A DNA stretch of 60,597 bases, taken from assembly GCA_944322255.1 (NCBI GenBank), contig CALUOK010000014.1, positions 1 through 60,597 of the forward strand. The letters run 5' to 3'. This stretch comes from Candidatus Methanomethylophilaceae archaeon (GTDB lineage: Archaea > Thermoplasmatota > Thermoplasmata > Methanomassiliicoccales > Methanomethylophilaceae). A model generated the notes under the pieces. That model was given only the letters and a program-made list of their open reading frames with translations. It had not been told where the DNA came from and made no database searches. Both the position numbers and the translations under genes were made by a program. The first letter of the stretch is position 1. Every line of letters starts with the position of its first letter. Of the stretch, positions 30,159 to 49,004 are shown one piece after another.

Positions 30159-30178
30159 TGTATTCCTCTGTGGTATGC

Positions 30179-31054
30179 TCAGATGTCGCACTGGCCGTTG
30201 TAGAGGATCGTCTCCTCACCGTCCTCCATGCAGGTTATCTGGAGGACCGCCAGGTCGCCTGTGAGGCCGGCATCCATGACGTGCATGGCGTACTGGCCGG
30301 ACCCGGTGATCGACACGGACGAGCTGATGCCCTGCATGTCGGTCAGGGTGGCGGTGACGTCCGTCCAGATGCCGTCGGCGTTCTCGATGTCCACCTCGAA
30401 GTGGAACAGGTCGTCCTCGGGGCAGGTGCACTCGTAGGACACGAGCAGGAAGTGGGGCTCGGTCTGGCGCTCGGTGGTGACCGTCTCCGTCGCAAGGATC
30501 TCCCCGTCAGCTGTAAGCGTGAGGGTGTACTCCATGTCCGGCTTGAGGTTCTCCTCCTTGTACGAGAAGGTGTCGGACTGGAACGTCTGGGTCCTCTCCG
30601 TGAAGCGGTTCGACAGGGACACACTGTATCCTAGGTCGGGGTCGTAGTCCTCCAGCTCCACCGTGTAGCGCACGGTGGTGTCGGTGGCGTCCACGGTCAC
30701 GAACGTTCCGGTGACCGTCAGGTCGTCGGAGCCGTCGTCGAATATTCCGTCGAAGACAGGTCCGAAGACGGGCCCGTACACGGGGGCGAAGATCGAAATG
30801 GCGGGGATGACCGCCAGCACCACGACCGCCGCGACGGCGACCGCCGACGCCATGGCCGCGCTGGACTCGGGGCCCCTGCGCTTCTTCCTCTCCTTCTCGG
30901 ACTTGGATGCGGGCGCATCGGTTCCGAACTCCTGGTACTCCTGGGTCTCCTTGGCCTGATGGGTCTCCTCGTAGGTGGGGTTCTCCCCGTACGTGGGGTT
31001 CTCCTCGGGGACGTCCAGGTTGGAGTAGTGGATCCTGTTGACCTCGTCTGCCGT
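30179..31054 (-). CDS. Single-span membrane protein with extracellular beta-sandwich domain, probable ACG start
   Basis: 291 residues if translation begins at ACG 31054. An ideal AGGAGGG (31062-31068) is seven bases upstream of that codon, and a TAG stop (31067-31069) overlaps it, so no ATG, GTG or TTG is available at the proper distance. The first in-frame ATG is 67 codons later (30853) and lacks a ribosome-binding site. The N-terminal 66 residues look genuinely coding: a direct repeat ENPTYGENPTYEE, then a basic stop-transfer KSEKERKKRRG. A transmembrane segment (AVAVAAVVVLAVIPAISI) and an Ig/Fn3-like domain (YTVELEDYDPDLGYSVSL) follow. It lies directly after the giant surface protein gene and may help anchor it. 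Confidence 0.72.
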   Translation of the reverse strand, partial: TADEVNRIHYSNLDVPEENPTYGENPTYEETHQAKETQEYQEFGTDAPASKSEKERKKRRGPESSAAMASAVAVAAVVVLAVIPAISIFAPVYGPVFGPVFDGIFDDGSDDLTVTGTFVTVDATDTTVRYTVELEDYDPDLGYSVSLSNRFTERTQTFQSDTFSYKEENLKPDMEYTLTLTADGEILATETVTTERQTEPHFLLVSYECTCPEDDLFHFEVDIENADGIWTDVTATLTDMQGISSSVSITGSGQYAMHVMDAGLTGDLAVLQITCMEDGEETILYNGQCDI

Positions 31055-31081
31055 TGCCGTTCCCTCCTAATATGTAATAGC

Positions 31082-31106
31082 GACGGGTGTGCATGGCACA
31101 CCCGTC
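31082..31106 (-). terminator. Perfect 11-bp hairpin after the giant gene
   Basis: The arms 31082-31092 (gacgggtgtgc) and 31096-31106 enclose a three-base loop, ten bases past the giant gene's stop codon. No T-run follows on the minus strand. It may stabilise the 16.5-kb transcript's 3' end or reduce read-through into the next gene. Confidence 0.6.
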
Positions 31107-31115
31107 TTAAAGTTT

Positions 31116-34100
31116 TCAGACCTCCTCCTCCTCGGAGTTCTCCACCTGGCGGTTGTAGTGCCACCACATGACGGCCATGACCGCCAGGGTCAGGGCCAGG
31201 GCGACGACGCACCATCCGCACAGGTCGCCGAGGACCAGCAGGACGGCATCGACGACCAGGGCGACCAGGGTTCCCATCCAGGCCAGCCTGTCGTACTCTC
31301 CCTCCCTGTGGACCAGGAGCAGGAACAGCATGTAGACCACCAGGACCAGGACGATGACGATCCAGGTGTAGCACCTGTCGCCGTCTCCGACCGCAGCCTC
31401 CCCGCCCTCGACGGCGGGCCTGACCAGCTCGGGTCCGACAGTGACGGTGAAGTCCCCGGCGGGCACCTTGACGGTCAGGGAGTAGTCCTTCTCCGGGTCC
31501 AGTCCGGTCCAGGTCATGTCCTCGCCGGTTCCGACCACCTGGATGGCCCCTCCGGGTCCGGGCACGGGGTTGCCGTCCTCGTCGGTGACGATGTAGATCA
31601 GTCCCTCCTCGGTGGGTACGGTCAGGGTGGTGCCGTCCTCGCCCGAGGTCACATCCCCGGTTCCGGGCATGGAGGGCACCTCGGGGAACGTGGCCCCTCC
31701 GATGACCTCTCCGTCGCCCTCCGTTCCCTGGTCCCTCTCGATCACCTGGAACGAGGTTCCGGGTGCGATGGGTCCAAGCAGCAGCGAGCCGCTGCCGTCC
31801 TCGGGGGTCCATCCGACGATGAGGCTTCCGTCGTCGCCCACCACGGCGTACTCCTTGCCGGGGGTGGTGGTGACCTTGACGAAGCATCCCTCGTCCGTCA
31901 CCACACCGCCCACGGCTGGCTCCCTGGCAGGCTTGACGTGCACCGGGCCGGTCTCCAGCTGGAAGATGCCGTCCTCGGTCTCGGCGTATATGTAGTAGTC
32001 CTCCTCAGGGTCCAGTCCGGACCAGGTGACCTCGCCTCCGGTCCCCTCGACCCACACCTGTCCGTCCGGGCCGAGCACGGGGTTGCCGTGGGAGTCCACG
32101 ACCTGGTACCTGACGCCCTCGTCGGTGTCGACGGTGACGGTGGTGTCGGTGCTGCCGACGATGTCGGCCACAGGCTTGGCGGGCACGGTGAACTCCTCCT
32201 CGACGGTGGTCTCGTTGGAGCCTGCGGGCCTGCTGACGACCTTGTAGTCCTCCCCGAACTCCAGTCCGGAGAAGTCGGCTGAGCCCTCGGTTCCGGGGAC
32301 CCATCCGCCCACGACGTTTCCGTTCGAGTCGACGACCGCGTACTCCCTGGAGGGATCCATGTTGTCAACGGTGACTGTCACACGGTCGTTGGTCGCCTGT
32401 CCAGTGACGGTGACCTCGTGGGTTCCCGTCTTCACGGTCTCGGGGCCGAACAGCAGGGCGTCCTCGCCCTCGCCGGTCTGGATCCAGAGGAAGTAGTCCT
32501 CGGACGGGTCCAGTCCGGGCCAGGTGACGTCCCCTCCGGTTCCTGTGACCCACACCTCGCCGTTGGGGCCGGGGATGGAGTTGCCGTCCTTGTCGGTCAG
32601 CATGTACTTCTTGTTGGAGTCCTCGGTGGTGACCGTCAGGCTGTCGCTGTCGGAGGTCACCCTGGACGGCATGATCGGGACGTCCACGTTCTTGTCGTAG
32701 ACGGTCTCGCCCGTCGCGGGGTCCCTTCCCTCGATCACGTAGTCGCCCTCGGGGAGCGGTCCGAAGGACACCTGCCCGTCTGTCGGCGAGGTCCAGTCGA
32801 ACACTACGTTGCCGTTCTCGTCGACCACGCGATACTCCCATCCGTTCTCGTCGTCCACGTGTATGTACACCTGGTCGTGCTTGGTGATGCCGGTGACGTT
32901 CGCGTCCATGGGCGGCCTGACCATCTGTGGTCCGACTTCCAGCTTCATTCCGTCCTTCTCGGACGTTGCGGTTGCGTAGTAGGTCTCGTTGGGGTCCAGT
33001 CCGGACACGGTGTGCTCGGATCCGTCGCCGGTGAAGGTGGCGACCACCTTTCCGGCGGAGTCGGTGATCTCGTACCTGACACCCTGCTCGGTGGCGATGG
33101 TGACGCTCTCGGAAGATGTTCCGGTGACCACGATCTCCGGCTCCTCCGGCGTCTCCACGGTCTCCTCGACGGTGACGGTGGTGGATCCGGGGGCCCTGCT
33201 GACGACCTCGTAGTCCTGTCCGGGCTCCAGGGGACCGAACACGATCTCCCCGGTACCGGACTCCCACTCGGGGTAGACCAGGTTGCCGGACTCGTCGCGG
33301 ATGTTGTACTCCTTTCCGGCCTCGGGCTTGACGGTGATGTAGATCTTGTCATCGTCGCCAATCTCCGGGTCGACGTCTGTGCCGGACGAGGTGCCTCCTC
33401 CGCCTCCGCCGTGGGACGGGTTGTCGGGTTCCGGCTCCGGTTCAGGTTCCGGTTCGACTGGTTCCGGACTCGGCGGGTTGGTGCTGTTGGAAGTGTTGAC
33501 GTTGCTGGGTCCGGAACCTCCGGTGTATCCGGGATCGCCGCTGACGGACATTCCGGGGCTGCCTCCCTGACCGGGAACCATGGAGCCTCCGGTGGCTGCG
33601 GGCCTGAACCCTGCGTTGGGTCCGACGGGCTTGGAACCCGTTCCTCCGTTGCCTCCTGCCCCAGAACCGGGGGCGTCGCCTCCGTTGCCTCCGGGGGATC
33701 CCGTGAAGTCGGTGTCCTCGGAGCTGATGGACGAACCGGGGGCGTCCACGGTGTTGCCGGCGTCTCCGCCGTCCCCTCCGTCACCGTCTCCGGCTCCGTC
33801 GCCTCCGTCTCCTCCCTGGCCGGCGACGACATCGGTTCCGTTGCCGTCGGCACCGGGGTTCAGGTCGATGAGACTGTCGCCCTCGATGTCGATGGCGGAT
33901 CCTCCGACGCCTCCGTCGGCCCCGTCCTCCGTGGGTCCGGATGTTCCGTCGTCCTGGTTACCATCGGAGGCGCCCTGGCCTCCCTGGCCTCCGTTGCCTC
34001 CGCCGATCGTTCCGCCGTTGGTCTCGACTCCGGACGGCTTGCCGCCGATTCCGGAACCTCCCTGGCCTCCCTGTCCGGCGGTGGATCCCGGATCATTTCC

Positions 34101-37100
34101 ATCATCACTGGGCGACTGGGCGTCAGCGCCGGTTCCTCCGTCTCCTCCCTGGACGGTTCCGCCGTTGACCTCGACCCTTCCCGTCGTGTCGATTCCGGAG
34201 CCTCCGTTGCCTCCGGGAGCTCCGTCGGCAGGCGTGCCCGTGCTGGAACCGTCGGCTTCAGGACCTCCCTGGCCTCCGTTGCCTCCGGAGACCGTTCCGT
34301 CCTGGTTGACGGTGACATCGGCTCCTCCGGTGATTCCTGAACCTCCGTTGCCTCCGGGGCCGGCGGCGTTGTCGCCTCCGTTGCCTCCGGAGACCGTTCC
34401 GTCCTCGACGGTCACCGGGATGTCGGATTCGATACCGGCACCGCCGGCGCCTCCGGTTCCCTCAGTCGTGGCACCTTCAGAGGTGACCTCGTGTCCGTTG
34501 CCTCCTGTGATGGTCGTGTTGCCATCGACGGTAATCGATCCTCCTGGGACCGAAGGGTCCACGGAGATGGCGGGAGCACCGTCGGGATGGCTGCTGCCGG
34601 AACCGTCGACGAACCCGTCGCCTCCGATGATGTTTCCGCCGCCGGTGATGGTGACGTCCACACCGGTTCCTGCGGGAGTGGTTGTATCGTCGCCTTCGTG
34701 TGTTATCTCGATAGCCGGCTCGCCGGGTTTTCCAGTGATGGTGTGACCGCCTGTGTCGATGACCACCTTCCCGAGGTCGTCGGGGATGGTGAGGGTTCCC
34801 TCAACATCATCCTTCACGGTGATGTGGATGGTTCCGTCGGGATCCTGAGTGACATCCACCTTGTCCTTATCGGCATCAGCCCAACCGTCTGTGATCTCGT
34901 TCTTGATTACATCAAGGCTGCTCTGATCCTTCACTGTGGCTCCGTCGGGTCCGTTGACACCGTCGGCCCCTCCGCTCGGGGAGGTTCCGCCCTGGCCTCC
35001 CTTGGCGGGCTGGCCGTCATCTCCGGCAACACCGGCTCCTGCGGCGCCTCCGTTGCCCGCGGTTCCGGGAGCTCCTGTGACGGATCCCCCGTTGCCTCCG
35101 GGACCGCCCTGTCCGGATCCGGACGCGGTAGGCTTGTCATTAGCATCCGTATTAAGAGAGTCGCCTCCGGCACCTCCGTCTCCTGCGACGGCCGATCCGG
35201 GCCTGCTGCCGTTCGGCAGTGTGACGTCTCCGCCGTTCCCTCCCTGGCCTCCGGCACCTCCGTTGGACTCTTCGGAGTCACCACCGTTTCCAGTTCCGCC
35301 GTTTCCGGCGTCGCCTCCGTTGCCTCCGGAGATGACCCCGCCTGTGATCTGGGAACCCGTGGGCGTGGAGACTGGCTTGCCGCCCTGGCCTCCGTTGCCT
35401 CCGCTGCCTCCAGCGCCGAGGTCATTGTCGGCCCCGTTGCCTCCGGCACCTCCGTTGCCTCCTGAGATGTCCGAGTCGGTTGAGTTGATGGTGGTTCCGG
35501 GCGCGGTTCCAGCGCCTCCGTCACCACCGTCGCCTCCGGTGTTGCCTGCACCGTTGTCATCGGTTCCTCCTCCGTTTCCAGCGTCGCCTCCGTTGCCTCC
35601 GACCAGGTCGGACCTGTCGGCGGTCACGTTGGAGGATGGGGCGCTGACAGCGGGACCTCCGTTGCCTCCGTCCCCGCCGGGACCGTCGGAATCGGATGCT
35701 CCGTTGCCTCCGTTGCCTCCGTTGAGCTGGGAGTCGTCTATGTCGACCCTTCCGCCTCCGGTGACGTCCACGGCCGCGCCTCCGTCACCACCGTCGGATC
35801 CGGATCCTGCGAGGGCGTCGCCTCCGTCTCCTGCGTTGACGACACTGTCCTTGATGGTCACGGGCACGGTGGATTCGATTCCAGCGCCTCCCTGGCCACC
35901 TTCCGGCCTCTCGGATGTGCCGCCGGCCCCGTCGCCACCGTTCACGGTGATTCCGGGACCGATGCTGATGGATCCTCCGGCGACGCCGTCTCCGACGGAC
36001 ACTCCGGGCATGCCGTTGCCGTCGGCACCTGTTCCTCCGGAGACCTCCGAGCCTGCGATGGGCTTGCCTTCCTCGTCCTCGCTGACGATGGAAACGTCCG
36101 CACCGGTCCCTCCGTCGACGTGATCGATGGAGATGGCCGGACCGTCAGGGTTCTTCACATCGTTGCCGTTGAGGTCTATGGTGACCTTCCCCACGTTATC
36201 GGGGATGACGATGCCGTTGCTGACTTCGCCGTCGATCTCTATGACGAATCCCTTATCCGGGTCGTACCTGACATCGCTTTTGTCGATATGGAAACCGGTC
36301 TCGGTGTTCGCGCTGTTGACCTTCTCGAGGAAATCGGCTATGCCGTCCTCGGACACGCCGGACACGGCACCGTTTCCGGGCCTGCCCCCCGGGCTTCCGG
36401 TTCCGGCGTTGCCCCCGGTGGTGTTGGAACCTGTTCCGGCGTCACCGCCGTCCCCTCCGGGTCCCTGGACATCGCCGGGACCTTTGCCTCCGTCGCCTCC
36501 GTCGCCTCCGACGGTCTTGTCGGGGGTTCCCGGCCCGGTCTTGTCACCGGCGTCACCGCCGGCTCCGGGCATACCATTACCGGTGGTGGAACCTCCTGCA
36601 CCTCCGTTTCCGGTGGTGACGTTGTCGGGGGTGCTACCGGACGGGACGTTCACCCCGCCTCCGTTGCCTCCGGCCCCGCCCTGGCCGTTATTGGAGTCTC
36701 CTCCGGCCCCGGCGTCACCTCCGGACATGTCGCCGTCGGTGACCGTGACGTTGCCGTCGCTCTCGATGGGGGATGCGCCGTCTCCTCCGTCGCCTCCGCT
36801 GCCGGTTCCGGTTGCGTCGCCTCCCTGGGCTCCGTCTCCTCCGGTAAGGTCGCTGTTGCCGGATGTGACCTTGTCACCGCCGTTCACAGCGTGACCTCCG
36901 TCTCCTCCGTCTCCTCCGCTGCCGGTTCCGGTTGCGTCGCCTCCCTGGGCTCCGTCTCCTCCGGTCGCGGTGGAGTTGTCGATCTCGACTGTCCCGGTCA
37001 CATCGACGGCATCGCCGCCCTGGCCTCCTGTACCGGCCTGACCGTTCTCGGAGTCGCCTCCGACCCCGGCGTTTCCGCCTGTGATGACGGAGTCGTCGAT

Positions 37101-40100
37101 GTCCGTGTCGCCGACGATGGAGGAGATTCCATCCCCACCCGCGCCACCGGCGCCTCCGGGCGTATCGCCCTTGCCGTCGCCTCCTTCGCCTCCCTGGCCT
37201 CCGCCCACGGTGGATCCGTTGGAGACCTCGGCGTCCTGGGCGCCGTCGATTCCGGTTCCGCCCTGACCGCCGTCTCCGGCGGGAGCGGTCCCTGTTCCAT
37301 TACCGCCGTCTCCGGCGTCCCCGCCGGTTACGGTGGAGTTGTCGACGACCACGTTGTCGGGGTATCCAGACACTCCGGATCCTCCGTTCCCTCCGTCGGA
37401 GCCAGGAGCTTCATTGCCATCGGCCTTCCCGCCCCCGTCTCCTCCGGAGACCTCGGATCCTCCCGAGATTGTGACATCGCCTCCGTCGGTGACGATTCCG
37501 TCGCCTCCGTCACCGGACACGACCTTGTCAGAGCCTGTCGTGGAGCCGTACCCTCCGTCTCCTCCGGAGACCTTTCCTCCATCGGTGACGGTGACGTCCT
37601 CTGTGGTCTCTATACCGGCGCCTCCGGCGCCTCCGTTGCCGTTCTGGGAACTGCCTCCGTCTCCTCCGGAGACCTTTCCCCCATCGGTGACGGTGATCGG
37701 GACGTCGGCGTCGATTCCCGCGCCTCCGGCTCCCGCGTTACCGTCCTCGAGCGGAGAGCCTGCTCCTGCGCCGTCTCCTCCTACCACCTCGACTCCGCCG
37801 TTGACGGTGATCGAGCCGTTGGGGACTGTGGGGTCCACGGATATGGCAGGGGAACCGTCGGGATGGCTGTCGCTGGGATTCTCCGTGTCCATGAAACCGT
37901 CTCCGCCGGTGATGGTGCCGCCGACGGTGGGGTTGCTGTTGATGATGTCCACGACCACGCCGGTTCTGGCGGGTGCGTCTTCCCCAGCAGGTACGTGTAC
38001 GACCTCGATGGCGGGCTCACCTGGCTTTCCGGCGATATTGTGCCCGTTCATGTCGACTGTGACCTTGCCCAGGTCGTCGGGGATCGTGAGTGTTCCCTCG
38101 ATGTCGTCCTCCAGTTTGATCACATATCCCTTCTCGGGATCGAACGTGACTGTCACGTCCTTCTTGTCCTCGTCAGAGAGTCCTTCTGTGATTCTGTCTA
38201 TGGCCCCCTCAAGACCTTCATCTGAGGGTGCCTGAGGGGCGGATGTTCCACTGTTTCCATTGTTTCCGGGTGCTGCATCATTACTAGATGTTCCGGCCGT
38301 TCCACCGGCACCTCCGTTTCCTTCATCGGAGTTTCCGCCAGAACCGCCGTTTCCAGATGACCCTGTGGCCCCGTTGCCTCTACCTCCGGCCCCTCCGGCA
38401 CCGCCGTCTGTATCGGTACCGTGTCCGGCACCTCCACTGCCTCCGTCGCCGGCGGAACCCCTGTCGGTGTCTCCTCCGGCTCCTCCGGCTCCTCCAGTGG
38501 CGGCAGGTTTGTCGTCAGGTTCACTCTGAGAACCAGTGTTGGTGGCATTGCCGCCGGCACCTCCGTCTCCGGCTGAGACATCGGTGGAGTTGCCTGCACC
38601 GGTGATCAATCCTCCGTCACCTCCATTGCCTCCGACATGATTGCCATCCGACGCTTCTGATGATGGAGTTTCATTGGCAGGTCCGTTGACGGTTCCGTTG
38701 CCTCCGTCGCCTCCGGACCCGGATTCGACGACGTCAGCATGGCTTCCACTACCGATCGATATGTCTCCGCCGTCTCCTCCGTTACCTCCGAAGCCGTTGT
38801 CGGTTATGGAGCCTCCCTCCGGCACAGTAGCCTGGGTCCCGTCGCCTCCGTTTCCTCCGTCCCCGGACACGACCTTGTCGGGTGAGCTGTTATTCGGGAT
38901 TGAGACGTCGCCTCCGTTTCCTCCGTTTCCACCGGCTGCACCGTTTCCTCCGTTTCCTCCGTTTCCACCGGCTATGTCGCCACCGGTGATCGAATCCGAG
39001 CTGGTAGAATCTGCATCCTTGTCAATGGGAGATCCACCGTCGCCTCCGTTTCCAGCGGTTCCATTGGAAGCGTCGCCTCCGTTTCCTCCGTTTCCTCCGG
39101 TGAAATCCGTATTATCGGAGTCGAGGGTGCCGCTTCCGGTAATGGCGTCGCCTCCGTTTCCTCCGGCGCCTCCATTCTGGTTCTCGCCAGTGGCGTCGTT
39201 TCCATCGCCTCCGTTTCCTCCGGATACGGTGGAGTCGTCGATCTGGACGTTACCACCGGTGTTGATGCCGGAACCTCCGTTCCCGGAAGGAGTTCCTGAT
39301 GTGCTGGCACTGTTGTTTCCGGCCCCACCGTCGCCTCCTGTGATGTGGGAGTCGTCGATGTCGATGTTCGGACTGCCAGAATCTGTTGATATTCCTGATC
39401 CTCCATTGCCGCCAGCACCGGATCCGGAGCTTCCTCCGTTACCTCCGGTGATGGTGGATCCGTCGGAGTCTATGTCGCTGGGAGTACCGGAGATTCCGTC
39501 GCCTCCGTTTCCGCCGGCTCCGGAACCTATGTTGTTACCACCGTTCCCTCCCTGGACAGCGGAGTCCTCCACAGTTACGGTACCGCCGTTGGATTCGATT
39601 CCGGATCCTCCCTCGGCAGCACCGGCCCCGCCGGAGCTCTTTCCTGCATCGCCTCCAGTGACAGAACCGTTGTTCTTGACGGTGACATCGGATGAGGATG
39701 CGATTCCATCCCCGCCTGCGCCACCAGTCTGCCCGTCGCCTCCGTTTCCACCGTTGACCACACCGCCGTTGACGGTGATTGGGATGCCCAGATCTATTCC
39801 GGCGCCTCCGGTCCCTCCGGTTCCAGATGCAGCATCGTAGCCGTCGCCTCCGTTGACGACGACGCCGGGTCCGACGGTGATGGAACCCTCGTTCGAGAAA
39901 CCGTCTTCCGCGGATATCGCGGGAGAACCTGCAGGACTTTCTGATGTCCCGTCTCCACCGTTGATCGAACCTCCTACAGAGGGCCTGCTGTTGACGATGT
40001 CGACAGCCGTTCCATTTCCATTCTCGGAACCGAACTCGATGGCCGGCTTGCCGGGCTCTCCGTTGATGTCGTGACCGTTCAGGTCGATGGTGACCTTGCC

Positions 40101-43100
40101 CCAGGTGTCGGGGATGTGGAGTGTGCCGTCGTAGTCGTCCTCCAGCTTGATCACGTATCCCTTCTCGGGGTCGTAAGTGATCTCGATGCCGTCGGATCCG
40201 GGATAGATAGCATCCTCGTTGTCTACAAGGTCCTGATAGATGTCATCGACGGTCGTGCCACTCTGCCCGTCTTCGACGGGCGCTGAGGGCACTGTGGTGC
40301 CGGGACGTCCCTGTGTATTGTCAGAACCTGTTCCTCCGTGTCCGGGTTTTCCTCCGGGAGCGCTGTCCCCGCCGTTTCCGGGCTTTCCGGTCGAGCCAGA
40401 ATCGATGCTTCCTCCGGTTCCACCGTTTCCTGGCTTCGCACTGTCGGATTCGCCTGTTGCCGTTCCTCCGGTTCCTCCGTTTCCGGCGTCCGCGTTGGAT
40501 GCCTCTCCTCCGGTTCCTCCGGTTCCTCCGGTTCCGTCGTTGGCAGTTCCTCCGTTTCCGCCGTCACCGGCAGTTGCATCGGAAGGCTTGCTGTTCTCCG
40601 GGAGCTTGACGGACCCTCCGGTTCCTCCGGTTCCTCCGTTACCGGAGGTGGATTTGTCGGGTTCGTCGCCCGGAGTGCCGCCGGAACCTCCGTTTCCGCC
40701 GTTTCCTCCGGTGATGATTCCGCCAGCGATCTGGGAGTCGCCCATGTCGATGGAGCCCTCAGACGTAGGCCACTCTATCGCGGATCCGCCGTTACCACCG
40801 TTTCCGCCTACGTCATCTTCGGTTCCTGTTTCTTCTTTGTCGCCCTTGGAGTCTCCACCGTCGCCTCCGGCTCCACCGCCTATCACGGTGTCCTTGCCGC
40901 CTATGTCGACGTCGTTGCCTCCGGATATGGCGGAACCTCCGTCGCCTCCGGACGGGGCCTTGCCGGTGTCGACGCTGCCCGCATCGCCTCCGGCTCCTCC
41001 GTTGACCTGGGAGTTCCCGGTGCCAGAGGTGTCCACGGATGCGTTGCCCTTGATCGCGTCGCCTCCGTTGCCTCCGTTACCGGTGTTGATTTCACCATCC
41101 ACAGAGCCGGCGATGCTGCCGCCTCCTCCCTGGCCTCCGGCTCCTCCGGTGACCTCGGATCCGCCTGTGACCGTGGTTGTTCCGGCTGTGCCGGCATCCT
41201 CTTTCGATTCGCCGTCAGGGATGTTGTCGACGGCTGTTCCGCCGTCGCCTCCGTTTCCTCCGGTACCATTCTCGGAGTCGCCTCCGTTTCCGGCTGAGCC
41301 TCCGGACACCGTGGAGCCGTCGATGGTGACGTCCACACCTGATACCGATCCGTCTGGCACATTGACGGCGGAACCTCCGCTTCCGCCGTCTCCTCCGTCG
41401 TTGGGGACGTCTGTCTCTTCTTCTTTATGGGAGCCGCTTCCGTCGCCTCCCTGGCCTCCGCTTCCTCCGGAGACCTCGGAGCCGTTGGTTATGTCCACGG
41501 GACCCTCGGAGACGATCGCGTCGCCTCCGTCGCCCGCCTGGCCGCCGTCGGCTGTGGTTGAATCGGTTCCGTCGCCTCCGTTTCCTCCGGAGACGTCAGA
41601 GTCGTCCACCACGACGGAGTCGGGATAGGAACCGACCTCCTGCGATTCACCACCATCTCCGACCGTGGTGGTCACTCCGGAAACCGCAGAGCCACCGTCG
41701 CCTCCCGATATTCCGGGCACAGTGACGGCGCCCTCTCCTTCGCCTGTGGTCTCTCCGCTGCCTCCGTTTCCTCCGGAAACCTCGGAGCCGTTGGTTATGT
41801 CCACGTTGCCTCCGGCGTTGATGGCGTCTCCTCCGGTTCCACCGGTTCCACCGATGCCGTCACCGTCGGCGATGTCGCCTCCGTTTCCTCCGGAGACCTT
41901 TCCGTCGTCGACGGATACGTCCCCGCCTGTGACGATACCGCTGCCTCCGGTTCCACCGGCGTTGCCATCGCCCTCGATGCCCTTTCCACCGTCGCCTCCG
42001 ATGACCTGGCCGCCGTCCTCGACTGTGACCTGGGTCCCTCCGGAGATCACTGTTTCACCTTCGACGGTACCGATGCCGATGTACCCGTCGATTCCGGCTC
42101 CGCCGTTCCCGGGAGTAGTTTGGGTGGAATTCGCGTCTCCACCAGATCCTCCCTGAACGACTGCATCTCCGGTAACCGTGATGCTGCAATCTGGAGAATC
42201 CACCAAGATTCCTGCGGACCCGTCGGTGGCAGCAGAATCGTCGCTGGCATCGGAGCCGTCCGAACCGATTACGGATCCGGGTCCGTTGATGACGAGATCT
42301 GTTCCGGTGGCGACGTCCGAACCCTGGTTCTCTTCTTTTACATCGTCGTTGATGGTGATGGCGGGCTCCCCTTCGTTGTTGCTGATGGTGTGTCCGTTGA
42401 GGTTCACTGTGACGTCACCGAGGGAGCCGGAGATCGTGACGGATTCTCCGATGTTCCCGTTCACATCAACGACGAATCCCGATTCGGAGTCGCCTGTCAC
42501 AGTGACGTTGTCACCGAAAGCCTCCTTCAGCATGTCCATGATGGAATCGTTGAAGACCTTGTCAACAGCCCCGATGAGGGAATCCATGCTGACAGGCCCA
42601 TCCGTTGGATAGGTCACTTCCTCGAGTGCATCGGTGATGGATTGCTTGATATTACTAACAGTCTCTTCATCGAATCCGAAGTCGTTGAGGATGTGCTCCA
42701 GCTTCTCCTGCATCTCGGCCTTGTAGCTGTTGAGCACCTGCTGGCCGATGTCGATCACCGACACGTCCCCGTTGGGCAGCTCGAACCTGGCGTTGCCCCG
42801 GTCGTCGGTGGCTATGGTGTGAGCAGGGATGGATTCGGTTCCGTCGAACATCACGCGGTTGCCGTTGACGTCCGTGACGTAGGTCCCGGCCCCGGCCATG
42901 ATGTCCGTGCCTGCCCCTTCTACGAGACCATCAGTTCTCCCTTCTCTGTCCGTCTCGTGGATTATGAAGTAGCTGTCTTCATAGGTTCCGCTGCTTCCAT
43001 CTGTTGTGAGTGTTCCGGTGATTGACACATCCACTTTGCCGTCTCCGGTTATTGTGTAATCCTGGGAGGCCCATGGATTTGTACCGGTTGTCTCACCCGA

Positions 43101-46100
43101 GACATCGCCATCTATGAGATTATTCGGTTTACTGACTGTGACTCCCAAGCTGTTGCTTCCTGTACCTGAGACCGCCGCAGTGATGTTCATGTCCACCTTG
43201 CCGAGCTCCGTCTGGACGAATTCCGCCTCGAATCCGGCGTAGAGCTTGTCGCCCTCATTATCGCCAGTGCCGTCGTAGATCTCGTGTCCGTGGAGCCCGT
43301 CATGGTCCTCCAGGGTCACGTTGGCTGTGCTGTTGCCCGTACCAGTTTCTGAGGGTGTCGCCACGACGCTGTTGAACCCGTGGCTGGGATCGACGTCGAG
43401 GCTCACACTGGGAGAGCCGACGACCTCCACCTTGGAACCGGACTCGATGAGCCCCACGGAGTCACTGATGTCCGATGTGACGTTCACAACCGACCCCACA
43501 GATGTTAACCCGTCCCCGTAGCCGCCCGCAGTGTTGCCGGAGACGTCACTGTTGTTCACCGTGATGGTGGAGGCACTCCCATCCTTAGGTTTCTCGATGT
43601 AGACCGCACCTCCGTCCCCCTCGGACATGTTGCCGATGATGGATGGCGGTACGTATCCATCGGATCCTTCAGCCTTGTTCTCTCCGATCGTCAGGCTTCC
43701 GCCGTCCTTGACGTAGATGGCGCTTCCGTCCCCTCCGGTCCAGTCAGGGTTCTCGGCCTTGTTGTAGTTCTGAATGGTGGTCCCGGACCCGACGGTCAGA
43801 GAGCCACCGTCCACCATGATGCCGCTTCCGGTTCCCGTATCTATGCCGTCGACGCGCTCGACCCCGTTACCGTCGATGGTAACGTCGGTCAGTGTCAGGT
43901 TTGACCCGCTGCCTATGACGAAAAGGGAACCGTTCCCGCCACCTTCGACATGGTCGATGGTGTGACCGTTACCGTCGATCACGAATTCACCGTCATCTCC
44001 CAGATTCGGAATGGTGATGGTGCCTGAATGCTCGGCATCCGCGTACATGTTCACAGTGACCTTGCTCGCACCTTCAAAGTCGTCACCGGGGTTGTTGAGG
44101 TAATCGACCAGTTCCTGGAAGGACCCGAACTGCTTGATCACGTTGGTCTGGCCATCCTTCTCGATGACCACTGTGAAAGGACTGTTGTACTGGGCTGCCG
44201 CCACGGAGATCCAGAGGCTGTTCTCGGAGTATGTGTGTCCGCCGGTGTCGATATCGTCTCCGGTCCTCGCATAGTGCCTGTTCTCTATGTCGAGGATCAC
44301 GCCTGCATCCATCCTGTCCGAGCGGAAGAACTCCACGAACCTCTTGTCCGCCTGGAGCCCCATCCACTCGTTCTTCGCGATCTGCACATCCTTGCTTGCG
44401 GTGGGAACTGAGGTGGTCCACACGCCTATGCTGCTTCCGTCCACCAGGCTTCCCCTGATGCCGAAGGTCTCGCCGTTGTTCAGACGCAGGTTCTTCTCCG
44501 TGGAGTCGGAGGCGTTCTGTTTGTTGCCCTCGATCACCAGCGGCTCGATGCTGCTGTAGTACCACTGGCCCTCAAGATTGCCGATACCTATCACGAGCCT
44601 CCCGGTCTGCTGGTAGGAACCCACGCCGCCTCCAATGTTGTCTATGATGGAACCGCCGGCAAGCTGGACGACTCCCTCCCACAGGTATATCCCTCCGGCG
44701 CCGCCGGATGCCTGGGCCCTGTTGTTGGAGATCGTTCCCCCCACTATGGTCGGTGATGATCCCACATCGTTGTGAACGAACCCTATCCCTCCGGCATAGT
44801 ATCCGGTGTTGCCGGTAATTGTACCGCCAGTCATCAGGAAGGTCGATTTTCCAGTGACACCAACACCGCCCACAGTGGTGGTCTGACCGGATGTGACGAA
44901 TCTCGTGAACCCTGTGTGACCGGTGATCATGGAGCCTTCCAAGATGTTGAGTGTGGGCTTGGCCCCGGACTGGCCTGCTCTGGGACCCACAAGCCACACC
45001 CCGCTCCCGCCGTTCTGCACCGTGCACCCGTCACCGAGCGTGAGCGTGGCGCCGTTGGTAACCAGCAGGGAGTTCTTCTCGGCTTTGCCGCTGCCGTCGA
45101 TGGTGATGTTTGTCAGAGTTACCGATACTCCGCTACCGGTGACCGTGATCAGGTCCCCAGCGGTGACTCCGCCGCGGAAGATCGTGCAGTCGTCCGCGTC
45201 GGAGGTGATGGTGACGCTGATGCTCCTGTTGAATGTGAGGGGGGAAGTCAGAGTGATGTCCGTCAACAGAGTGATGGTGGAGTTGGAGGTGGCCATGCTG
45301 TATGCATGAGCGATTGTCCTGTACGGGTTCTCACGGGACCCGTTACCGGCTGAGTCGCTTCCATAGGCACTGACATAGAGGTCGGAGTCCATCCTGAGAT
45401 AGATGTTCCCTCCGATGACTGCAGACTCAGAACTCACACGGTCGGAGTGGAAGTAACCATCTATGTTGGAATTCCCTGTACTGATCCGCACGGGCGCGGA
45501 GGCGGTCGGCACGGCAGAGGTGTAGACGCCGATGCTACTGTCGTCCGCCAACCCCCCTTGTACTTTGAACACCTTTCCGTCGAGCACCAGATTGGCGGCC
45601 GATCCGCCGATCTTGTTGCCCGTGATCTTCAGCGGTACGGTCGGATCCTGATCAGCGGTACCGATATTGATGGTCCCGGTATTGTTGTATGTCCTGACAC
45701 CCCCGCCGGTGTTGTTCTGGATGGTTCCGCCGTTGAGCGTCAGCGTCCCGTTCCACACGTAGATTGCCCCGTAGTTTCCACGGGATGTATTATTCTCAAT
45801 TGTTCCATCGTTGATGACTGCTGAAGAACCAGGAGCGAGGGTTATAGCCGAACCGTTGTTTGAAGTGTTGCCAGTGATGATTCCGCCATCCATGACCACC
45901 TTCCCGCCGCTCAGAACGGCGATTGCCCCGGCGGTGCTGTACGTCGGGTACGTGGTATAGAACATCCCTCCGCTGAAGTTCTGTATCTTTGCGCCTTCCT
46001 TGATATTGAGGGTGCCTGAGGACACCTTGATGCCTATCTGCCCGTTCTGTACGGTGGCCCTGTTATCGAGAGTGAGTGTTCCGCCGTTGATTTCGATAAG

Positions 46101-47603
46101 CGGACTGTCGACATTATTACCATCGACAGTTATATCCGCTAGTCTAACCTTAGCGCCAGAAGGAATCGTGAAAACGCCTGTGATCGAACGACTGCCACCA
46201 TGCGCACTGGTTATTGTGACTGTGCCTGTGCTTTCTCCAGAGAGTTCAGCTCCAGGAACGTTCGTCAGAAGGAAGATGGTAACATCGCCATTGACATTTT
46301 TTGCAACATCATACGCCTTTGAGACTGTCTTGTAAGGGCTGCCTCTAGTTCCGTTTCCGTTGGTATCATCCCCATTGGTATTCGAAACAAAAAGACCCTC
46401 GGAATTGAAAACGAAATAAACATCCCCATCTTCATGGGAGCTTGAAGATGATATTACGGTCTGACCGTCTTTGTTCACGAGATGATCGCTATCATACACC
46501 GCCGCCCCACAGTCACCATTCTTGAAACAGCCTAGAACAGAGTAGTCGCCACTTCCTTTCATGTATGACATCATTTGCTCGGAGACAGTGGCGAATTTTT
46601 TATCAGAATCGATGGTAGGAATTTCAGCGGATGTCACCACCGAACTACCTGTCTTAAGATTCCCGTTGATTACGATGGCGACGTCTCCAATTTTATTTAC
46701 TTTGAGTTCTGAAGATGGATTGAGACCTGGTTTCCCGATGTAGACCGTACCTGTATCGTACTTTCCAACATGTTGTGAACCGGTTCCGTTGCCAATGGTA
46801 CCTCCGGTCAGCGTCACATTCGCACCCCATAAGTGGATGTCATTACCACCAACGCTCGATTCAGAACCAGTCCTTGTGTTGTTAGCAATAGTTCCTCCTG
46901 AAATCTCAGCACTGGCACCACTTAAAATCGCAAGCCCCCCGGCATATGATCCTCCTGTATTGTTAGAGATCTCACCACCGGTCATTGTAAATTTGGCCAG
47001 ACTGCCCTCAACTAAAACTCCGCCTACTCTAGTGTTACCACTAAGAATGTTGGACACTACACATCCCGTGTTTTCGGTTACTTTGGCTCCTTCGAGGATT
47101 TCCAAGGAAGAATATCCAGTTCCTGTGTTATCTTGAACTACAACCCCCACGCCGCCTTTGGTAATTACACTCCCATCACCAAGAATCAGATGACCGTCTT
47201 CTGTTACCTTAATGGTTATAGCGCCGGACAAACCATTGACAGTCAGATTCTCTATAACGAGAGTGGATCCATTTGACACTGTTATTGGACTGATACCCGT
47301 GAAACTGATTGTAGAGCCGTTTCCAACCAGTTTATACAGCTTTCCATCATCAAAATTTAATCCTTGAGAAATTCCCGTGATTGCTGTAACCGTGATAATG
47401 ACTTTATCGTAGCTACCATTATCATCAACCGCAGAGGTTAATTGTTCGGCATTCGAAGCAAATATGTTTTGGGCCCCTTCCCATTCAAGGATATCGGCAT
47501 CCGCGACTGCCTCCTGGTCTGCAGTCAACACGATTGCCGACGAGAGCGCCATCACAAGAACGACCGCTATGGTCGCCATAGCATTCTCTTTTCTGATTCT
47601 CAT
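31116..47603 (-). CDS. Giant adhesin-like surface protein (about 5,495 residues)
   Basis: Approximate layout: signal peptide 1-30 (TIAVVLVMALSSAIVL). Parallel beta-helix, adhesin/pectate-lyase-like domains about 40-1600, with the start motif GNGTRGSPYKTVSKAYD near 410, GNGSRENPYRTIAHAYS near 745, and GGxIxxNTxxxxGGG-type rungs. An alpha-helical segment spans about 1600-1715. Five glycine-rich modules (GGNGGDGG runs) cover about 1708-4710. A Pro/Glu linker (PEPEPEPEPD) leads to eight 80-residue beta-sandwich-like repeats at about 4748-5390. Three membrane helices and an acidic tail ENSEEEEV end the protein. It is exported, held by its C-terminus, and presumably a long fibre for adhesion or shielding. 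The ATG at 47603 is preferred over 47645 because a TATA box (47641-47654) overlaps the latter and GGAG lies seven bases upstream of the former. Confidence 0.9.
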   Translation of the reverse strand: MRIRKENAMATIAVVLVMALSSAIVLTADQEAVADADILEWEGAQNIFASNAEQLTSAVDDNGSYDKVIITVTAITGISQGLNFDDGKLYKLVGNGSTISFTGISPITVSNGSTLVIENLTVNGLSGAITIKVTEDGHLILGDGSVITKGGVGVVVQDNTGTGYSSLEILEGAKVTENTGCVVSNILSGNTRVGGVLVEGSLAKFTMTGGEISNNTGGSYAGGLAILSGASAEISGGTIANNTRTGSESSVGGNDIHLWGANVTLTGGTIGNGTGSQHVGKYDTGTVYIGKPGLNPSSELKVNKIGDVAIVINGNLKTGSSVVTSAEIPTIDSDKKFATVSEQMMSYMKGSGDYSVLGCFKNGDCGAAVYDSDHLVNKDGQTVISSSSSHEDGDVYFVFNSEGLFVSNTNGDDTNGNGTRGSPYKTVSKAYDVAKNVNGDVTIFLLTNVPGAELSGESTGTVTITSAHGGSRSITGVFTIPSGAKVRLADITVDGNNVDSPLIEINGGTLTLDNRATVQNGQIGIKVSSGTLNIKEGAKIQNFSGGMFYTTYPTYSTAGAIAVLSGGKVVMDGGIITGNTSNNGSAITLAPGSSAVINDGTIENNTSRGNYGAIYVWNGTLTLNGGTIQNNTGGGVRTYNNTGTINIGTADQDPTVPLKITGNKIGGSAANLVLDGKVFKVQGGLADDSSIGVYTSAVPTASAPVRISTGNSNIDGYFHSDRVSSESAVIGGNIYLRMDSDLYVSAYGSDSAGNGSRENPYRTIAHAYSMATSNSTITLLTDITLTSPLTFNRSISVTITSDADDCTIFRGGVTAGDLITVTGSGVSVTLTNITIDGSGKAEKNSLLVTNGATLTLGDGCTVQNGGSGVWLVGPRAGQSGAKPTLNILEGSMITGHTGFTRFVTSGQTTTVGGVGVTGKSTFLMTGGTITGNTGYYAGGIGFVHNDVGSSPTIVGGTISNNRAQASGGAGGIYLWEGVVQLAGGSIIDNIGGGVGSYQQTGRLVIGIGNLEGQWYYSSIEPLVIEGNKQNASDSTEKNLRLNNGETFGIRGSLVDGSSIGVWTTSVPTASKDVQIAKNEWMGLQADKRFVEFFRSDRMDAGVILDIENRHYARTGDDIDTGGHTYSENSLWISVAAAQYNSPFTVVIEKDGQTNVIKQFGSFQELVDYLNNPGDDFEGASKVTVNMYADAEHSGTITIPNLGDDGEFVIDGNGHTIDHVEGGGNGSLFVIGSGSNLTLTDVTIDGNGVERVDGIDTGTGSGIMVDGGSLTVGSGTTIQNYNKAENPDWTGGDGSAIYVKDGGSLTIGENKAEGSDGYVPPSIIGNMSEGDGGAVYIEKPKDGSASTITVNNSDVSGNTAGGYGDGLTSVGSVVNVTSDISDSVGLIESGSKVEVVGSPSVSLDVDPSHGFNSVVATPSETGTGNSTANVTLEDHDGLHGHEIYDGTGDNEGDKLYAGFEAEFVQTELGKVDMNITAAVSGTGSNSLGVTVSKPNNLIDGDVSGETTGTNPWASQDYTITGDGKVDVSITGTLTTDGSSGTYEDSYFIIHETDREGRTDGLVEGAGTDIMAGAGTYVTDVNGNRVMFDGTESIPAHTIATDDRGNARFELPNGDVSVIDIGQQVLNSYKAEMQEKLEHILNDFGFDEETVSNIKQSITDALEEVTYPTDGPVSMDSLIGAVDKVFNDSIMDMLKEAFGDNVTVTGDSESGFVVDVNGNIGESVTISGSLGDVTVNLNGHTISNNEGEPAITINDDVKEENQGSDVATGTDLVINGPGSVIGSDGSDASDDSAATDGSAGILVDSPDCSITVTGDAVVQGGSGGDANSTQTTPGNGGAGIDGYIGIGTVEGETVISGGTQVTVEDGGQVIGGDGGKGIEGDGNAGGTGGSGIVTGGDVSVDDGKVSGGNGGDIADGDGIGGTGGTGGDAINAGGNVDITNGSEVSGGNGGSGETTGEGEGAVTVPGISGGDGGSAVSGVTTTVGDGGESQEVGSYPDSVVVDDSDVSGGNGGDGTDSTTADGGQAGDGGDAIVSEGPVDITNGSEVSGGSGGQGGDGSGSHKEEETDVPNDGGDGGSGGSAVNVPDGSVSGVDVTIDGSTVSGGSAGNGGDSENGTGGNGGDGGTAVDNIPDGESKEDAGTAGTTTVTGGSEVTGGAGGQGGGGSIAGSVDGEINTGNGGNGGDAIKGNASVDTSGTGNSQVNGGAGGDAGSVDTGKAPSGGDGGSAISGGNDVDIGGKDTVIGGGAGGDGGDSKGDKEETGTEDDVGGNGGNGGSAIEWPTSEGSIDMGDSQIAGGIITGGNGGNGGSGGTPGDEPDKSTSGNGGTGGTGGSVKLPENSKPSDATAGDGGNGGTANDGTGGTGGTGGEASNADAGNGGTGGTATGESDSAKPGNGGTGGSIDSGSTGKPGNGGDSAPGGKPGHGGTGSDNTQGRPGTTVPSAPVEDGQSGTTVDDIYQDLVDNEDAIYPGSDGIEITYDPEKGYVIKLEDDYDGTLHIPDTWGKVTIDLNGHDINGEPGKPAIEFGSENGNGTAVDIVNSRPSVGGSINGGDGTSESPAGSPAISAEDGFSNEGSITVGPGVVVNGGDGYDAASGTGGTGGAGIDLGIPITVNGGVVNGGNGGDGQTGGAGGDGIASSSDVTVKNNGSVTGGDAGKSSGGAGAAEGGSGIESNGGTVTVEDSAVQGGNGGNNIGSGAGGNGGDGISGTPSDIDSDGSTITGGNGGSSGSGAGGNGGSGISTDSGSPNIDIDDSHITGGDGGAGNNSASTSGTPSGNGGSGINTGGNVQIDDSTVSGGNGGDGNDATGENQNGGAGGNGGDAITGSGTLDSDNTDFTGGNGGNGGDASNGTAGNGGDGGSPIDKDADSTSSDSITGGDIAGGNGGNGGNGAAGGNGGNGGDVSIPNNSSPDKVVSGDGGNGGDGTQATVPEGGSITDNGFGGNGGDGGDISIGSGSHADVVESGSGGDGGNGTVNGPANETPSSEASDGNHVGGNGGDGGLITGAGNSTDVSAGDGGAGGNATNTGSQSEPDDKPAATGGAGGAGGDTDRGSAGDGGSGGAGHGTDTDGGAGGAGGRGNGATGSSGNGGSGGNSDEGNGGAGGTAGTSSNDAAPGNNGNSGTSAPQAPSDEGLEGAIDRITEGLSDEDKKDVTVTFDPEKGYVIKLEDDIEGTLTIPDDLGKVTVDMNGHNIAGKPGEPAIEVVHVPAGEDAPARTGVVVDIINSNPTVGGTITGGDGFMDTENPSDSHPDGSPAISVDPTVPNGSITVNGGVEVVGGDGAGAGSPLEDGNAGAGGAGIDADVPITVTDGGKVSGGDGGSSQNGNGGAGGAGIETTEDVTVTDGGKVSGGDGGYGSTTGSDKVVSGDGGDGIVTDGGDVTISGGSEVSGGDGGGKADGNEAPGSDGGNGGSGVSGYPDNVVVDNSTVTGGDAGDGGNGTGTAPAGDGGQGGTGIDGAQDAEVSNGSTVGGGQGGEGGDGKGDTPGGAGGAGGDGISSIVGDTDIDDSVITGGNAGVGGDSENGQAGTGGQGGDAVDVTGTVEIDNSTATGGDGAQGGDATGTGSGGDGGDGGHAVNGGDKVTSGNSDLTGGDGAQGGDATGTGSGGDGGDGASPIESDGNVTVTDGDMSGGDAGAGGDSNNGQGGAGGNGGGVNVPSGSTPDNVTTGNGGAGGSTTGNGMPGAGGDAGDKTGPGTPDKTVGGDGGDGGKGPGDVQGPGGDGGDAGTGSNTTGGNAGTGSPGGRPGNGAVSGVSEDGIADFLEKVNSANTETGFHIDKSDVRYDPDKGFVIEIDGEVSNGIVIPDNVGKVTIDLNGNDVKNPDGPAISIDHVDGGTGADVSIVSEDEEGKPIAGSEVSGGTGADGNGMPGVSVGDGVAGGSISIGPGITVNGGDGAGGTSERPEGGQGGAGIESTVPVTIKDSVVNAGDGGDALAGSGSDGGDGGAAVDVTGGGRVDIDDSQLNGGNGGNGASDSDGPGGDGGNGGPAVSAPSSNVTADRSDLVGGNGGDAGNGGGTDDNGAGNTGGDGGDGGAGTAPGTTINSTDSDISGGNGGAGGNGADNDLGAGGSGGNGGQGGKPVSTPTGSQITGGVISGGNGGDAGNGGTGNGGDSEESNGGAGGQGGNGGDVTLPNGSRPGSAVAGDGGAGGDSLNTDANDKPTASGSGQGGPGGNGGSVTGAPGTAGNGGAAGAGVAGDDGQPAKGGQGGTSPSGGADGVNGPDGATVKDQSSLDVIKNEITDGWADADKDKVDVTQDPDGTIHITVKDDVEGTLTIPDDLGKVVIDTGGHTITGKPGEPAIEITHEGDDTTTPAGTGVDVTITGGGNIIGGDGFVDGSGSSHPDGAPAISVDPSVPGGSITVDGNTTITGGNGHEVTSEGATTEGTGGAGGAGIESDIPVTVEDGTVSGGNGGDNAAGPGGNGGSGITGGADVTVNQDGTVSGGNGGQGGPEADGSSTGTPADGAPGGNGGSGIDTTGRVEVNGGTVQGGDGGTGADAQSPSDDGNDPGSTAGQGGQGGSGIGGKPSGVETNGGTIGGGNGGQGGQGASDGNQDDGTSGPTEDGADGGVGGSAIDIEGDSLIDLNPGADGNGTDVVAGQGGDGGDGAGDGDGGDGGDAGNTVDAPGSSISSEDTDFTGSPGGNGGDAPGSGAGGNGGTGSKPVGPNAGFRPAATGGSMVPGQGGSPGMSVSGDPGYTGGSGPSNVNTSNSTNPPSPEPVEPEPEPEPEPDNPSHGGGGGGTSSGTDVDPEIGDDDKIYITVKPEAGKEYNIRDESGNLVYPEWESGTGEIVFGPLEPGQDYEVVSRAPGSTTVTVEETVETPEEPEIVVTGTSSESVTIATEQGVRYEITDSAGKVVATFTGDGSEHTVSGLDPNETYYATATSEKDGMKLEVGPQMVRPPMDANVTGITKHDQVYIHVDDENGWEYRVVDENGNVVFDWTSPTDGQVSFGPLPEGDYVIEGRDPATGETVYDKNVDVPIMPSRVTSDSDSLTVTTEDSNKKYMLTDKDGNSIPGPNGEVWVTGTGGDVTWPGLDPSEDYFLWIQTGEGEDALLFGPETVKTGTHEVTVTGQATNDRVTVTVDNMDPSREYAVVDSNGNVVGGWVPGTEGSADFSGLEFGEDYKVVSRPAGSNETTVEEEFTVPAKPVADIVGSTDTTVTVDTDEGVRYQVVDSHGNPVLGPDGQVWVEGTGGEVTWSGLDPEEDYYIYAETEDGIFQLETGPVHVKPAREPAVGGVVTDEGCFVKVTTTPGKEYAVVGDDGSLIVGWTPEDGSGSLLLGPIAPGTSFQVIERDQGTEGDGEVIGGATFPEVPSMPGTGDVTSGEDGTTLTVPTEEGLIYIVTDEDGNPVPGPGGAIQVVGTGEDMTWTGLDPEKDYSLTVKVPAGDFTVTVGPELVRPAVEGGEAAVGDGDRCYTWIVIVLVLVVYMLFLLLVHREGEYDRLAWMGTLVALVVDAVLLVLGDLCGWCVVALALTLAVMAVMWWHYNRQVENSEEEEV
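31440..33380 (-). repeat. Eight tandem beta-sandwich-like repeats, two alternating types
   Basis: Within the giant protein, about 80-residue units alternate. Type A has GKEYNIRDESGNLVYPEW... FGPLEPGQDYEVVSR. Type B has GVRYEITDSAGKVV... SGLDPNETYYATA. Four A/B pairs are recognisable by the recurring GLDP(x)2(D/E)Y and DxxGN motifs. They resemble Fn3/Ig stalk domains and end 40-50 bases before the membrane helices. Confidence 0.75.
33470..42480 (-). repeat. Five-module glycine-rich region of the giant protein
   Basis: Each module opens with a header such as DPEKGYVIKLEDD, then IPDDLGKVTVDMNGHNI and GKPGEPAIE, at about 42480, 40190, 38160, 36280 and 34860. It then runs into long GGNGGDGG sequence with a recurrent rung-like unit (ITNGSEVSGGNGGxG). 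Header wording differs between modules, so the modules are old duplications. The GGx triplet periodicity suggests a polyglycine-II-like fold. Confidence 0.8.
36781..36965 (-). repeat. Recent 120-bp tandem duplication inside the giant gene
   Basis: Bases 36781-36845 and 36901-36965 differ at one position only and are exactly 120 bp (40 codons) apart. Both encode TGGDGAQGGDATGTGSGG. This is a fresh slippage or unequal-recombination event, in contrast to the diverged large modules. Confidence 0.85.
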
Positions 47604-47610
47604 ACTAACA

Positions 47611-47654
47611 CTCCAGAACTTACCATTGTGTCCAGCCCAGTTCATATTTAATCT
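47611..47654 (-). promoter_or_regulatory. Promoter and ribosome-binding site of the giant gene
   Basis: A TATA-like box AGATTAAATATGAA (minus strand, 47641-47654) and GGAG (47611-47614), seven bases before the ATG at 47603. Further upstream the pair gctcaaatatccg (47718-47730) and gctcaaattccg (47746-47757) is a short direct repeat that might bind a regulator. Confidence 0.55.
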
Positions 47655-47873
47655 GCCGCCGGCTGCCGCGACCCTCTAACGCTTCCTATTACGCGCGTCT
47701 ATTAAAGATTTAAGCACGCTCAAATATCCGTTAAAACCTGAACATGCTCAAATTCCGCGCACACCCCCGAAAATCCCATGTTTTCCCATGTCTGGCACAT
47801 GCGTCCATCCAACATAATCCGTCCATCCGGACCATCCGCAACAATCATATCGGCCCCCGCGGAATACGGACGC

Positions 47874-48779
47874 ATGCTGGGCTACACCGTGCCGGCCTAC
47901 GGAAGGCTCTCACCCGCGGACCTCTCACTGTACCGCAGGTACTACTGCGAGACCTGCCACCAGCTCCGCGACGGCTTCGGCCTCACCGGCACCCTCACGG
48001 TCAACTACGACATGACCTTCAACACCGTCCTGCTCTGCGGGATCACCGGCCAGGCCCTCGATGTGGGACCCACCGAGAAGACCATATGCGTCCTGGAGCA
48101 CAGCAAGACCGACGCGGACCTCATGCACGCAATGGCCGCCTACACCCTGATCCTCACGAAATGGGAGCTACACGACGACGACACCGACGACCCCTCCCTC
48201 AAGAACAAAGCGATATCCCTCACCCTGAACCGCGCCATACAGAAGGCTGTCAGAGAGTATCCGGAGTACGACGCCATGGTGGGTGAGGGCTTCGAGGACC
48301 TAAGGAGGCTCGAGCTCGACGGCTGCAAGGACGCCTGCCTCATGGGCCGCACCTTCGGGAAGGGCCTGATCGGCGCACTTGAGGACATCGCCGGCGATTC
48401 CTACACCGAGGAGCTCGGAGAGGTGTTCACCGAGCTCAGCACCGCAGTCTACATCATGGACGCCATCGACGACCTGGACGAGGACTTCATGGAGGGGACC
48501 TACAACCCCCTGCTTCCCGACACCGGGTTCGTCAACGCCCGGAGGTACATCGACGGCAACGTCTTCCGCTTCACCGACCTCGTCAACCGGACGGTGGGCG
48601 GGATGCAGTCCTCGTACTCGAAGGTCAGAGGGGACATGAAGGGCAACGTCTCCCTCTGCGACAACATCGTCTACTTCGGCATACCGGAGTCCGCCCGCAG
48701 GGTGATCTCCGGCGGGTCCCAGGCGAAGGCGTCCATCAAGAACATGTTCTCCAACAGGAGCGCCAGGATGTCAGACCGA
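47874..48779 (+). CDS. DUF5685 family protein; 3' end uncertain
   Basis: About 300 residues from MLGYTVPAYGRLSPADLSLYRRYYCETC. The opening, with CETC, and the later DAIDDLDEDFMEGTYNPLL are typical of DUF5685, an all-helical family of unknown function whose Asp-rich motif recalls metal-binding isoprenoid-type folds. Family proteins end near KASIKNMF. Here that end is reached at about 48750, but no stop codon follows. The frame runs on through sequence antisense to the small Cys-rich gene and merges with the next plus-strand gene, closing only at 49727. In the next frame a TAG occurs at about 48792, so loss of a stop or a one-base indel is likely. The given end is therefore approximate. Confidence 0.75.
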
Positions 48780-49004
48780 TCCCGAGGGGTCGTAGAGCGA
48801 GCACACGTCCAACTCGAACATACCCTCGCCGGTCCTCCCGCACACCCCTCCGGAGTAGGAGGAGCAGTTCTCGCAGCACCCCGGTCTGTACCTGCCGCAT
48901 GTCCCGTCCCTGTCCGTGGGCCTCGACTCCGGGAGGCACACCCACATGTCCCCGGCGTGCCTGCAGAACCTGCAGGTGCGGCATTTGCGGTAGCTCTCGT
49001 CCAT
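48771..49004 (-). CDS. Small cysteine-rich (metal- or Fe-S-binding) protein
   Basis: 77 residues with ten cysteines: CRTCRFC at 8-14, Cys23, Cys36, CCENC at 43-47, Cys55 and Cys68. The spacing suggests one or two structural zinc or Fe-S sites. There is no membrane segment. It lies tail-to-tail with the DUF5685 gene. The long plus-strand frame running across it makes a low-complexity, Pro/Ala/Arg-rich product, typical of antisense translation, so this strand is taken as the real one. No family is recognised. Confidence 0.65.
   Translation of the reverse strand: MDESYRKCRTCRFCRHAGDMWVCLPESRPTDRDGTCGRYRPGCCENCSSYSGGVCGRTGEGMFELDVCSLYDPSGSV

Follow-up and report, generated by a model that had tools for sequence, protein, structure and literature searches.

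The adhesin-like proteins (ALPs) of Methanobrevibacter smithii and Methanosphaera stadtmanae are large membrane-anchored surface proteins that combine right-handed beta-helix domains with an Ig-like stalk; the largest of them in M. smithii reaches 4,691 aa and is built of seven beta-helix domains and 18 stalk domains, and the archaeal Big domain is without a database definition of its own (PMC11532034). The inter-domain gene transfer into surface functions of gut methanogens is known in general (PMC3445992). The protein described below is most likely one of this adhesin-like kind in its anchored architecture, with a Gly-rich module that, among the genomes searched, was otherwise found only in bacteria of the Kiritimatiellae; new here are this module, the link to Kiritimatiellae and the fold predicted for it.

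The window, i.e., the whole stretch of 60,597 nucleotides analysed (C14:1-60597), belongs to a 1.88-Mb genome that is 96% complete in a 31-contig draft and carries mcrA, by which its host is a methanogen; of 61 genomes taken from the same order, 54 had mcrA, and the gene for an RLI ATPase lies also within the window. The minus strand from 31116 to 47645 is occupied by one unbroken frame of 5,509 codons counted from the first in-frame ATG (47645), with residue i at base 47645-3(i-1) in the numbering used throughout. Met15 (47603) is the better start, because GGAG lies upstream of it and a signal-peptide-like segment follows downstream. The likely product from Met15 has 5,495 aa, about 529 kDa, pI 4.05 and a net charge of about -581. 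Chance is ruled out as the source of an open frame of 16.5 kb whose GC content is about 61% and in which conserved domain headers recur. The single 16.5-kb gene for about 5,500 residues, as had been called in the first-pass annotation with the same start at 47603, is an uninterrupted one. The parts of the gene are as follows.

31116-47603, minus strand: whole gene, 5,495 aa from Met15
47499-47603, minus strand: signal peptide-like N-terminus, residues 15-49 (hydropathy peak at residues 20-44)
44256-47465, minus strand: three beta-helix-type units of about 365 aa, residues 61-1130 (from alignment; low GC3 of 0.43 at the 5' end)
43146-44228, minus strand: fourth beta-helix-type unit, residues 1140-1500 (from sequence and alignment)
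40272-42725, minus strand: Gly-rich module 1, residues 1641-2458, header 1714-1873
38241-40271, minus strand: Gly-rich module 2, residues 2459-3135, header 2487-2639; tail modelled from residue 2795
36351-38240, minus strand: Gly-rich module 3, residues 3136-3765, header 3164-3334; residues 3155-3600 modelled
34956-36350, minus strand: Gly-rich module 4, residues 3766-4230, header 3790-3945
33486-34955, minus strand: Gly-rich module 5, residues 4231-4720, header 4263-4427
33381-33485, minus strand: Pro/Glu and Gly linker, about residues 4721-4755 (from sequence)
31413-33368, minus strand: stalk of eight Ig/SpaA-like repeats of about 80 aa, residues 4760-5411 (SpaA PF17802, E 2e-12)
31155-31382, minus strand: C-terminal membrane anchor, residues 5422-5497, two or three helices (from hydropathy)

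The signal peptide, beta-helix domains, five Gly-rich modules, Pro/Glu linker and eight stalk repeats that had been read from the letters at first pass were all recovered in the sequence; of the three C-terminal membrane helices the hydrophobic region 5422-5497 stood, and the helix number fits two as well as three. The eight stalk repeats were matched in Pfam by SpaA PF17802 (E 2e-12) and by no Big model, and, the stalk aside, no family of Pfam or NCBIfam rose above the cut-off in the protein. The N-terminal units appear by their sequence pattern to be of the beta-helix type and are weakly related to sequences in 15 further genomes of the order, in some cases within frames of 3,257-4,068 aa; giant proteins of the surface type are therefore no rarity as such among these archaea. 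In comparison with the ALPs as far as described in the sections of PMC11532034 used, the giant protein is alike in its hydrophobic segments (20-44 and 5422-5497) and in the right-handed beta-helix of the module 3 model, whereas its membrane helices are C-terminal and those of the ALPs generally N-terminal, its 5,495 aa exceed their length, its stalk matches SpaA, and the Gly-rich module kind, present here in five copies, found no mention in those sections.

The five Gly-rich modules (residues 1641-4720) are 45-53% identical in pairwise comparison and repeat one plan, a header followed by coils of 33-45 residues and by a nearly pure GGxGG tail. The header has the consensus VTxDPEKGxVIxxxDDxxGTLTIPDxLGKVTIDLNGHxIxGxPGEPAIEI around the core motif DLNGHxIxGxPGxPAI, and the coil type after it is VTVxDGxVSGGNGGDG...GGNGGDGI; the five copies scored E 1e-44 to 1e-60 with a mixed profile in which these five were themselves included. 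The Gly-rich part comprises about 2,900 residues with 31% Gly, and the whole protein has 125 GGxGG motifs. The earlier estimate of about 3,000 residues of GGN-type sequence is corrected to these figures, and the sequence is organised in coils and does not form a featureless PGRS array. For the mycobacterial PE_PGRS proteins, a polyglycine-II packing has been proposed, and long GGxGG-rich regions are common to them and to the giant protein, which differs by its beta-helix header and by the hydrophobic strands in its coils. The whole protein matched no PE domain in Pfam-A, and membership in PE_PGRS was rejected on this absence; the comparison with PE_PGRS made at first pass comes down to glycine content, as each module has a folded header and beta-helix strands in its coils.

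The distribution of the module was followed with the header profile, for which the near absence of matches across hundreds of other genomes served as specificity control. In the methanogen order, one of 147 genomes was matched, which is the window's own, and in the archaeal phylum one of the 389 genomes drawn from it. A degenerate-pattern scan of 84,980 species, by which the phyla beyond the archaeal and the Kiritimatiellae ones were covered in a single pass with a short pattern, gave one relative, protein L012 of a Kiritimatiellae bacterium from goat duodenum, whose header and coils aligned end to end and lie in an open frame that is 2,559 aa long or longer. Within the Kiritimatiellae order to which this bacterium belongs, 25 of 161 genomes have the module, and 387 genomes of the phylum of this order gave five matches, all within that one order. 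The Kiritimatiellae proteins (L012, a 5,513-aa frame of G303, and a protein of G284) share the header motif and the GGxGG coils, set in tandem in very large multidomain proteins; they have other domains around the module and are without the archaeal stalk and anchor. The open frame of G303 (L047, contig C25), of 5,513 residues, carries at least 10 header modules at E 1e-3. A search of the papers covered for giant surface proteins in Kiritimatiellae returned nothing relevant. The search for homologues of the header motif, proposed with the first-pass annotation, has placed them in Kiritimatiellae. The remark made there, that such a protein is unusual for an archaeon, was right and more so than the letters alone could tell: its Gly-rich module is of Kiritimatiellae type, and none of the other archaea searched has it.

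Between the archaeal modules and their nearest bacterial counterparts, the identity is only about 35-40%, by which a transfer would be old or its donor unsampled. In the unrooted module tree, four archaeal modules cluster (94/92) among the bacterial ones, with module 1 placed beside them without support, and they are not beside any one donor; a single archaeal clade of modules was not rejected (AU p 0.515). The lateral acquisition of the module from bacteria is the best and simplest reading of these data, the direction and the number of transfers being inferred, and it was probably followed by duplication to five copies. An ancient shared module, or an independent convergence on Gly-rich beta-helices, with losses in other archaea, is considered unlikely: the modest identity and the tree position of module 1 would suit it, and short-period Gly-rich repeats can converge, but the header is not of low complexity and was matched along the whole of its 158 positions, with E 1e-40 (L012 being one row of that profile), and common descent without transfer requires loss in 146 of the 147 genomes of the order. 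Phage origin of the module was considered as well and rejected, as no header relatives were found in phage records and viral contigs.

A bacterial module distribution, a GC3 of the giant gene unlike that of its neighbours and a draft of 31 contigs are also what would be expected if Kiritimatiellae sequence had been fused to an archaeal contig by chimeric assembly or mis-binning. This is regarded as highly improbable, since the single frame runs unbroken from the N-terminus through to the archaeal C-terminus, both flanks are syntenic with four archaeal genomes of the same genus, and the modules are merely about 40% identical to the bacterial ones. The contig contains no N, and no exact internal repeats of 60 bp or more were found inside the giant gene; short reads are thus able to span each repeat, and collapse of repeats is unlikely and was rejected. 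Along the gene, the GC3 climbs from 0.43 (5' end) to 0.90 (3' end), against about 0.9 in the neighbour genes, and this gradient suggests a mosaic origin.

The stalk and anchor were found in three same-genus genomes only, among 59 other genomes searched, the stalk end and anchor of one of them (G008) being 50% identical to those of the giant protein, and no paralogues of the stalk were found in its own genome; by these relatives, the C-terminal stalk and anchor are assigned to the archaeal genus. The gene is the first of a three-gene cassette, with the further features given below.

30179-30853, minus strand: second cassette gene, single-pass membrane protein with an outer domain, 224 aa (open frame up to 295 aa)
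29121-30191, minus strand: third cassette gene, MscS-type mechanosensitive channel
29011-47872, no strand: 18.9-kb stretch that holds the three-gene cassette only; in G014, G015, G023 and G027 it is missing from between these neighbours

The MscS gene was recognised by the MS_channel beta domain PF00924 (E 3e-14) and TM2/3 PF21088 (E 3e-7), and the order of stalk-type protein, 224-aa relative and MscS in the window recurs in G014, G020 and G008. This order in four genomes would be consistent with a tethered mechanosensor, the fibre pulling on the 224-aa membrane protein and the adjacent MscS channel, a function to which a very low probability is given, as the co-location may reflect joint inheritance alone, and the 224-aa/MscS pair stands downstream of mcrA in G125 without the stalk protein. 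The similarity to the four same-genus relatives stops at about 29010 and 47873, and the genes flanking the cassette (radical-SAM-like and DUF5685) are close neighbours in the four genomes of the genus. The 18.9-kb stretch may have been either inserted here or lost in the four relatives; no target-site duplication was found at its edges, where there were merely chance matches of 9-10 bp.

The fold of the module was predicted with AlphaFold2. For residues 3155-3600 of module 3, aligned with the other modules and L012, a right-handed parallel beta-helix was obtained with pLDDT 91.4 and pTM 0.91. VIA-align matched this model to Vag8 (Z 24.1, rmsd 3.3, 281 aligned), pertactin (Z 20.4), AlgE4 (20.1) and an SRRP adhesin (20.0), and a Foldseek search to the springtail nine-helix polyproline-II bundle 7jjv (E 4e-4), while a profile search of solved structures (PDB) with the module body gave no match at E 0.01. 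The autotransporter passengers Vag8 and pertactin have the same right-handed parallel beta-helix as the module (Z 24 and 20) at 13-16% identity to it, and they belong with an outer-membrane barrel, instead of which the giant protein has an archaeal export signal and C-terminal membrane helices. For the tail of module 2 (2795-3135), the best model had a mean pLDDT of 65.8 and the other four 38-52; the better part of this weak model (pLDDT 65.8) superposed on 7jjv with Z 14.2, with 123 of its 126 residues aligned at rmsd 2.1 A. The predicted tail thus resembles the nine-helix bundle of the springtail (Collembola) polyproline-II antifreeze proteins (7jjv, 2pne); the structural identity of 42% to 7jjv is probably due to the glycine that both contain and does not speak for common descent, the tail serves in this surface protein as a repeating scaffold, and there is no reason to expect ice binding. 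A library of viral folds searched with the module model returned mainly generic beta-helix proteins with low TM-scores. On these models, the long GGxGG sequence is most likely a beta-helix with a polyproline-II bundle, a structural reading open to test, instead of disorder.

The structural matches include the AlgE4 and AlgE6 epimerases and tailspikes, and a multi-domain polysaccharide lyase or epimerase has accordingly to be weighed; little credence is given to it, as enzyme domains of Pfam and NCBIfam are absent from the protein, the identity in the structural alignments is 10-18%, and a common fold is no proof of function. A membrane-anchored adhesin-like surface fibre of the methanogen, with a native stalk and anchor joined to a laterally acquired and five-fold duplicated Gly-rich module, is the explanation held to be probable. 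The signal segment, anchor, beta-helix parts and stalk are present, in agreement with the proposal at first pass of a giant surface protein, anchored and akin to the adhesin-like proteins of methanogens. By its sequence features, the protein would be exported via the signal peptide and retained by the C-terminal hydrophobic anchor, and the eight Ig-like repeats would raise the remaining protein off the membrane. About 4,400 residues of beta-helix and polyproline-II-bundle modules may then form a stiff, very acidic outer rod, the fold of one module being a high-confidence prediction that is extended here to the remaining ones. In this fibre, the archaeal anchor and stalk would have been joined to a Gly-rich module otherwise confined to Kiritimatiellae among the genomes searched. 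The rod is most likely an adhesin or a protective coat in a crowded gut-type habitat, and the giant protein could be the main contact or shield structure of the cell, as first suggested. A more specific formulation, that the composite fold (right-handed beta-helix, polyproline-II segments in the coils and a free PPII bundle end) is a mobile surface module passed between Kiritimatiellae and the methanogen, where it sits on a native MscS-linked stalk, is put forward tentatively as doubtful rather than probable. With a native anchor carrying bacterial modules, a concrete way is seen in which archaea that live among bacteria may build their surface, and, should contact with bacteria or feed particles be made through this protein, it bears on how methanogens hold their niche. 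The Gly-rich module, which is covered by no Pfam or NCBIfam model, now has a usable motif and profile.

Several observations were made around the cassette. In G125 (L095, C21:88000-106000), the 224-aa relative and the MscS gene lie directly downstream of the mcr genes, without the stalk protein. On contig C81 of G008 (L013/L096), the stalk gene in the cassette is truncated, with stop codons upstream, and is separated from the 224-aa/MscS pair by a reverse-transcriptase-like gene and ATPase-like genes. An AAA_14/DUF4143 ATPase gene (26057-27382, plus strand) and another frame (21956-23266, minus strand) in the window have no match in the corresponding region of the four relatives and are probable mobile genes near the island. 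At 47778-49727 on the plus strand, DUF5685 and prephenate dehydratase stand in one open frame, which is either a gene fusion or an assembly detail; in many same-genus relatives, there are stops between the two regions, or the genes are apart. A gene for a small Cys- and Gly-rich protein (28520-28820, minus strand) lies beside the insertion point and is conserved at the DNA level in the relatives.
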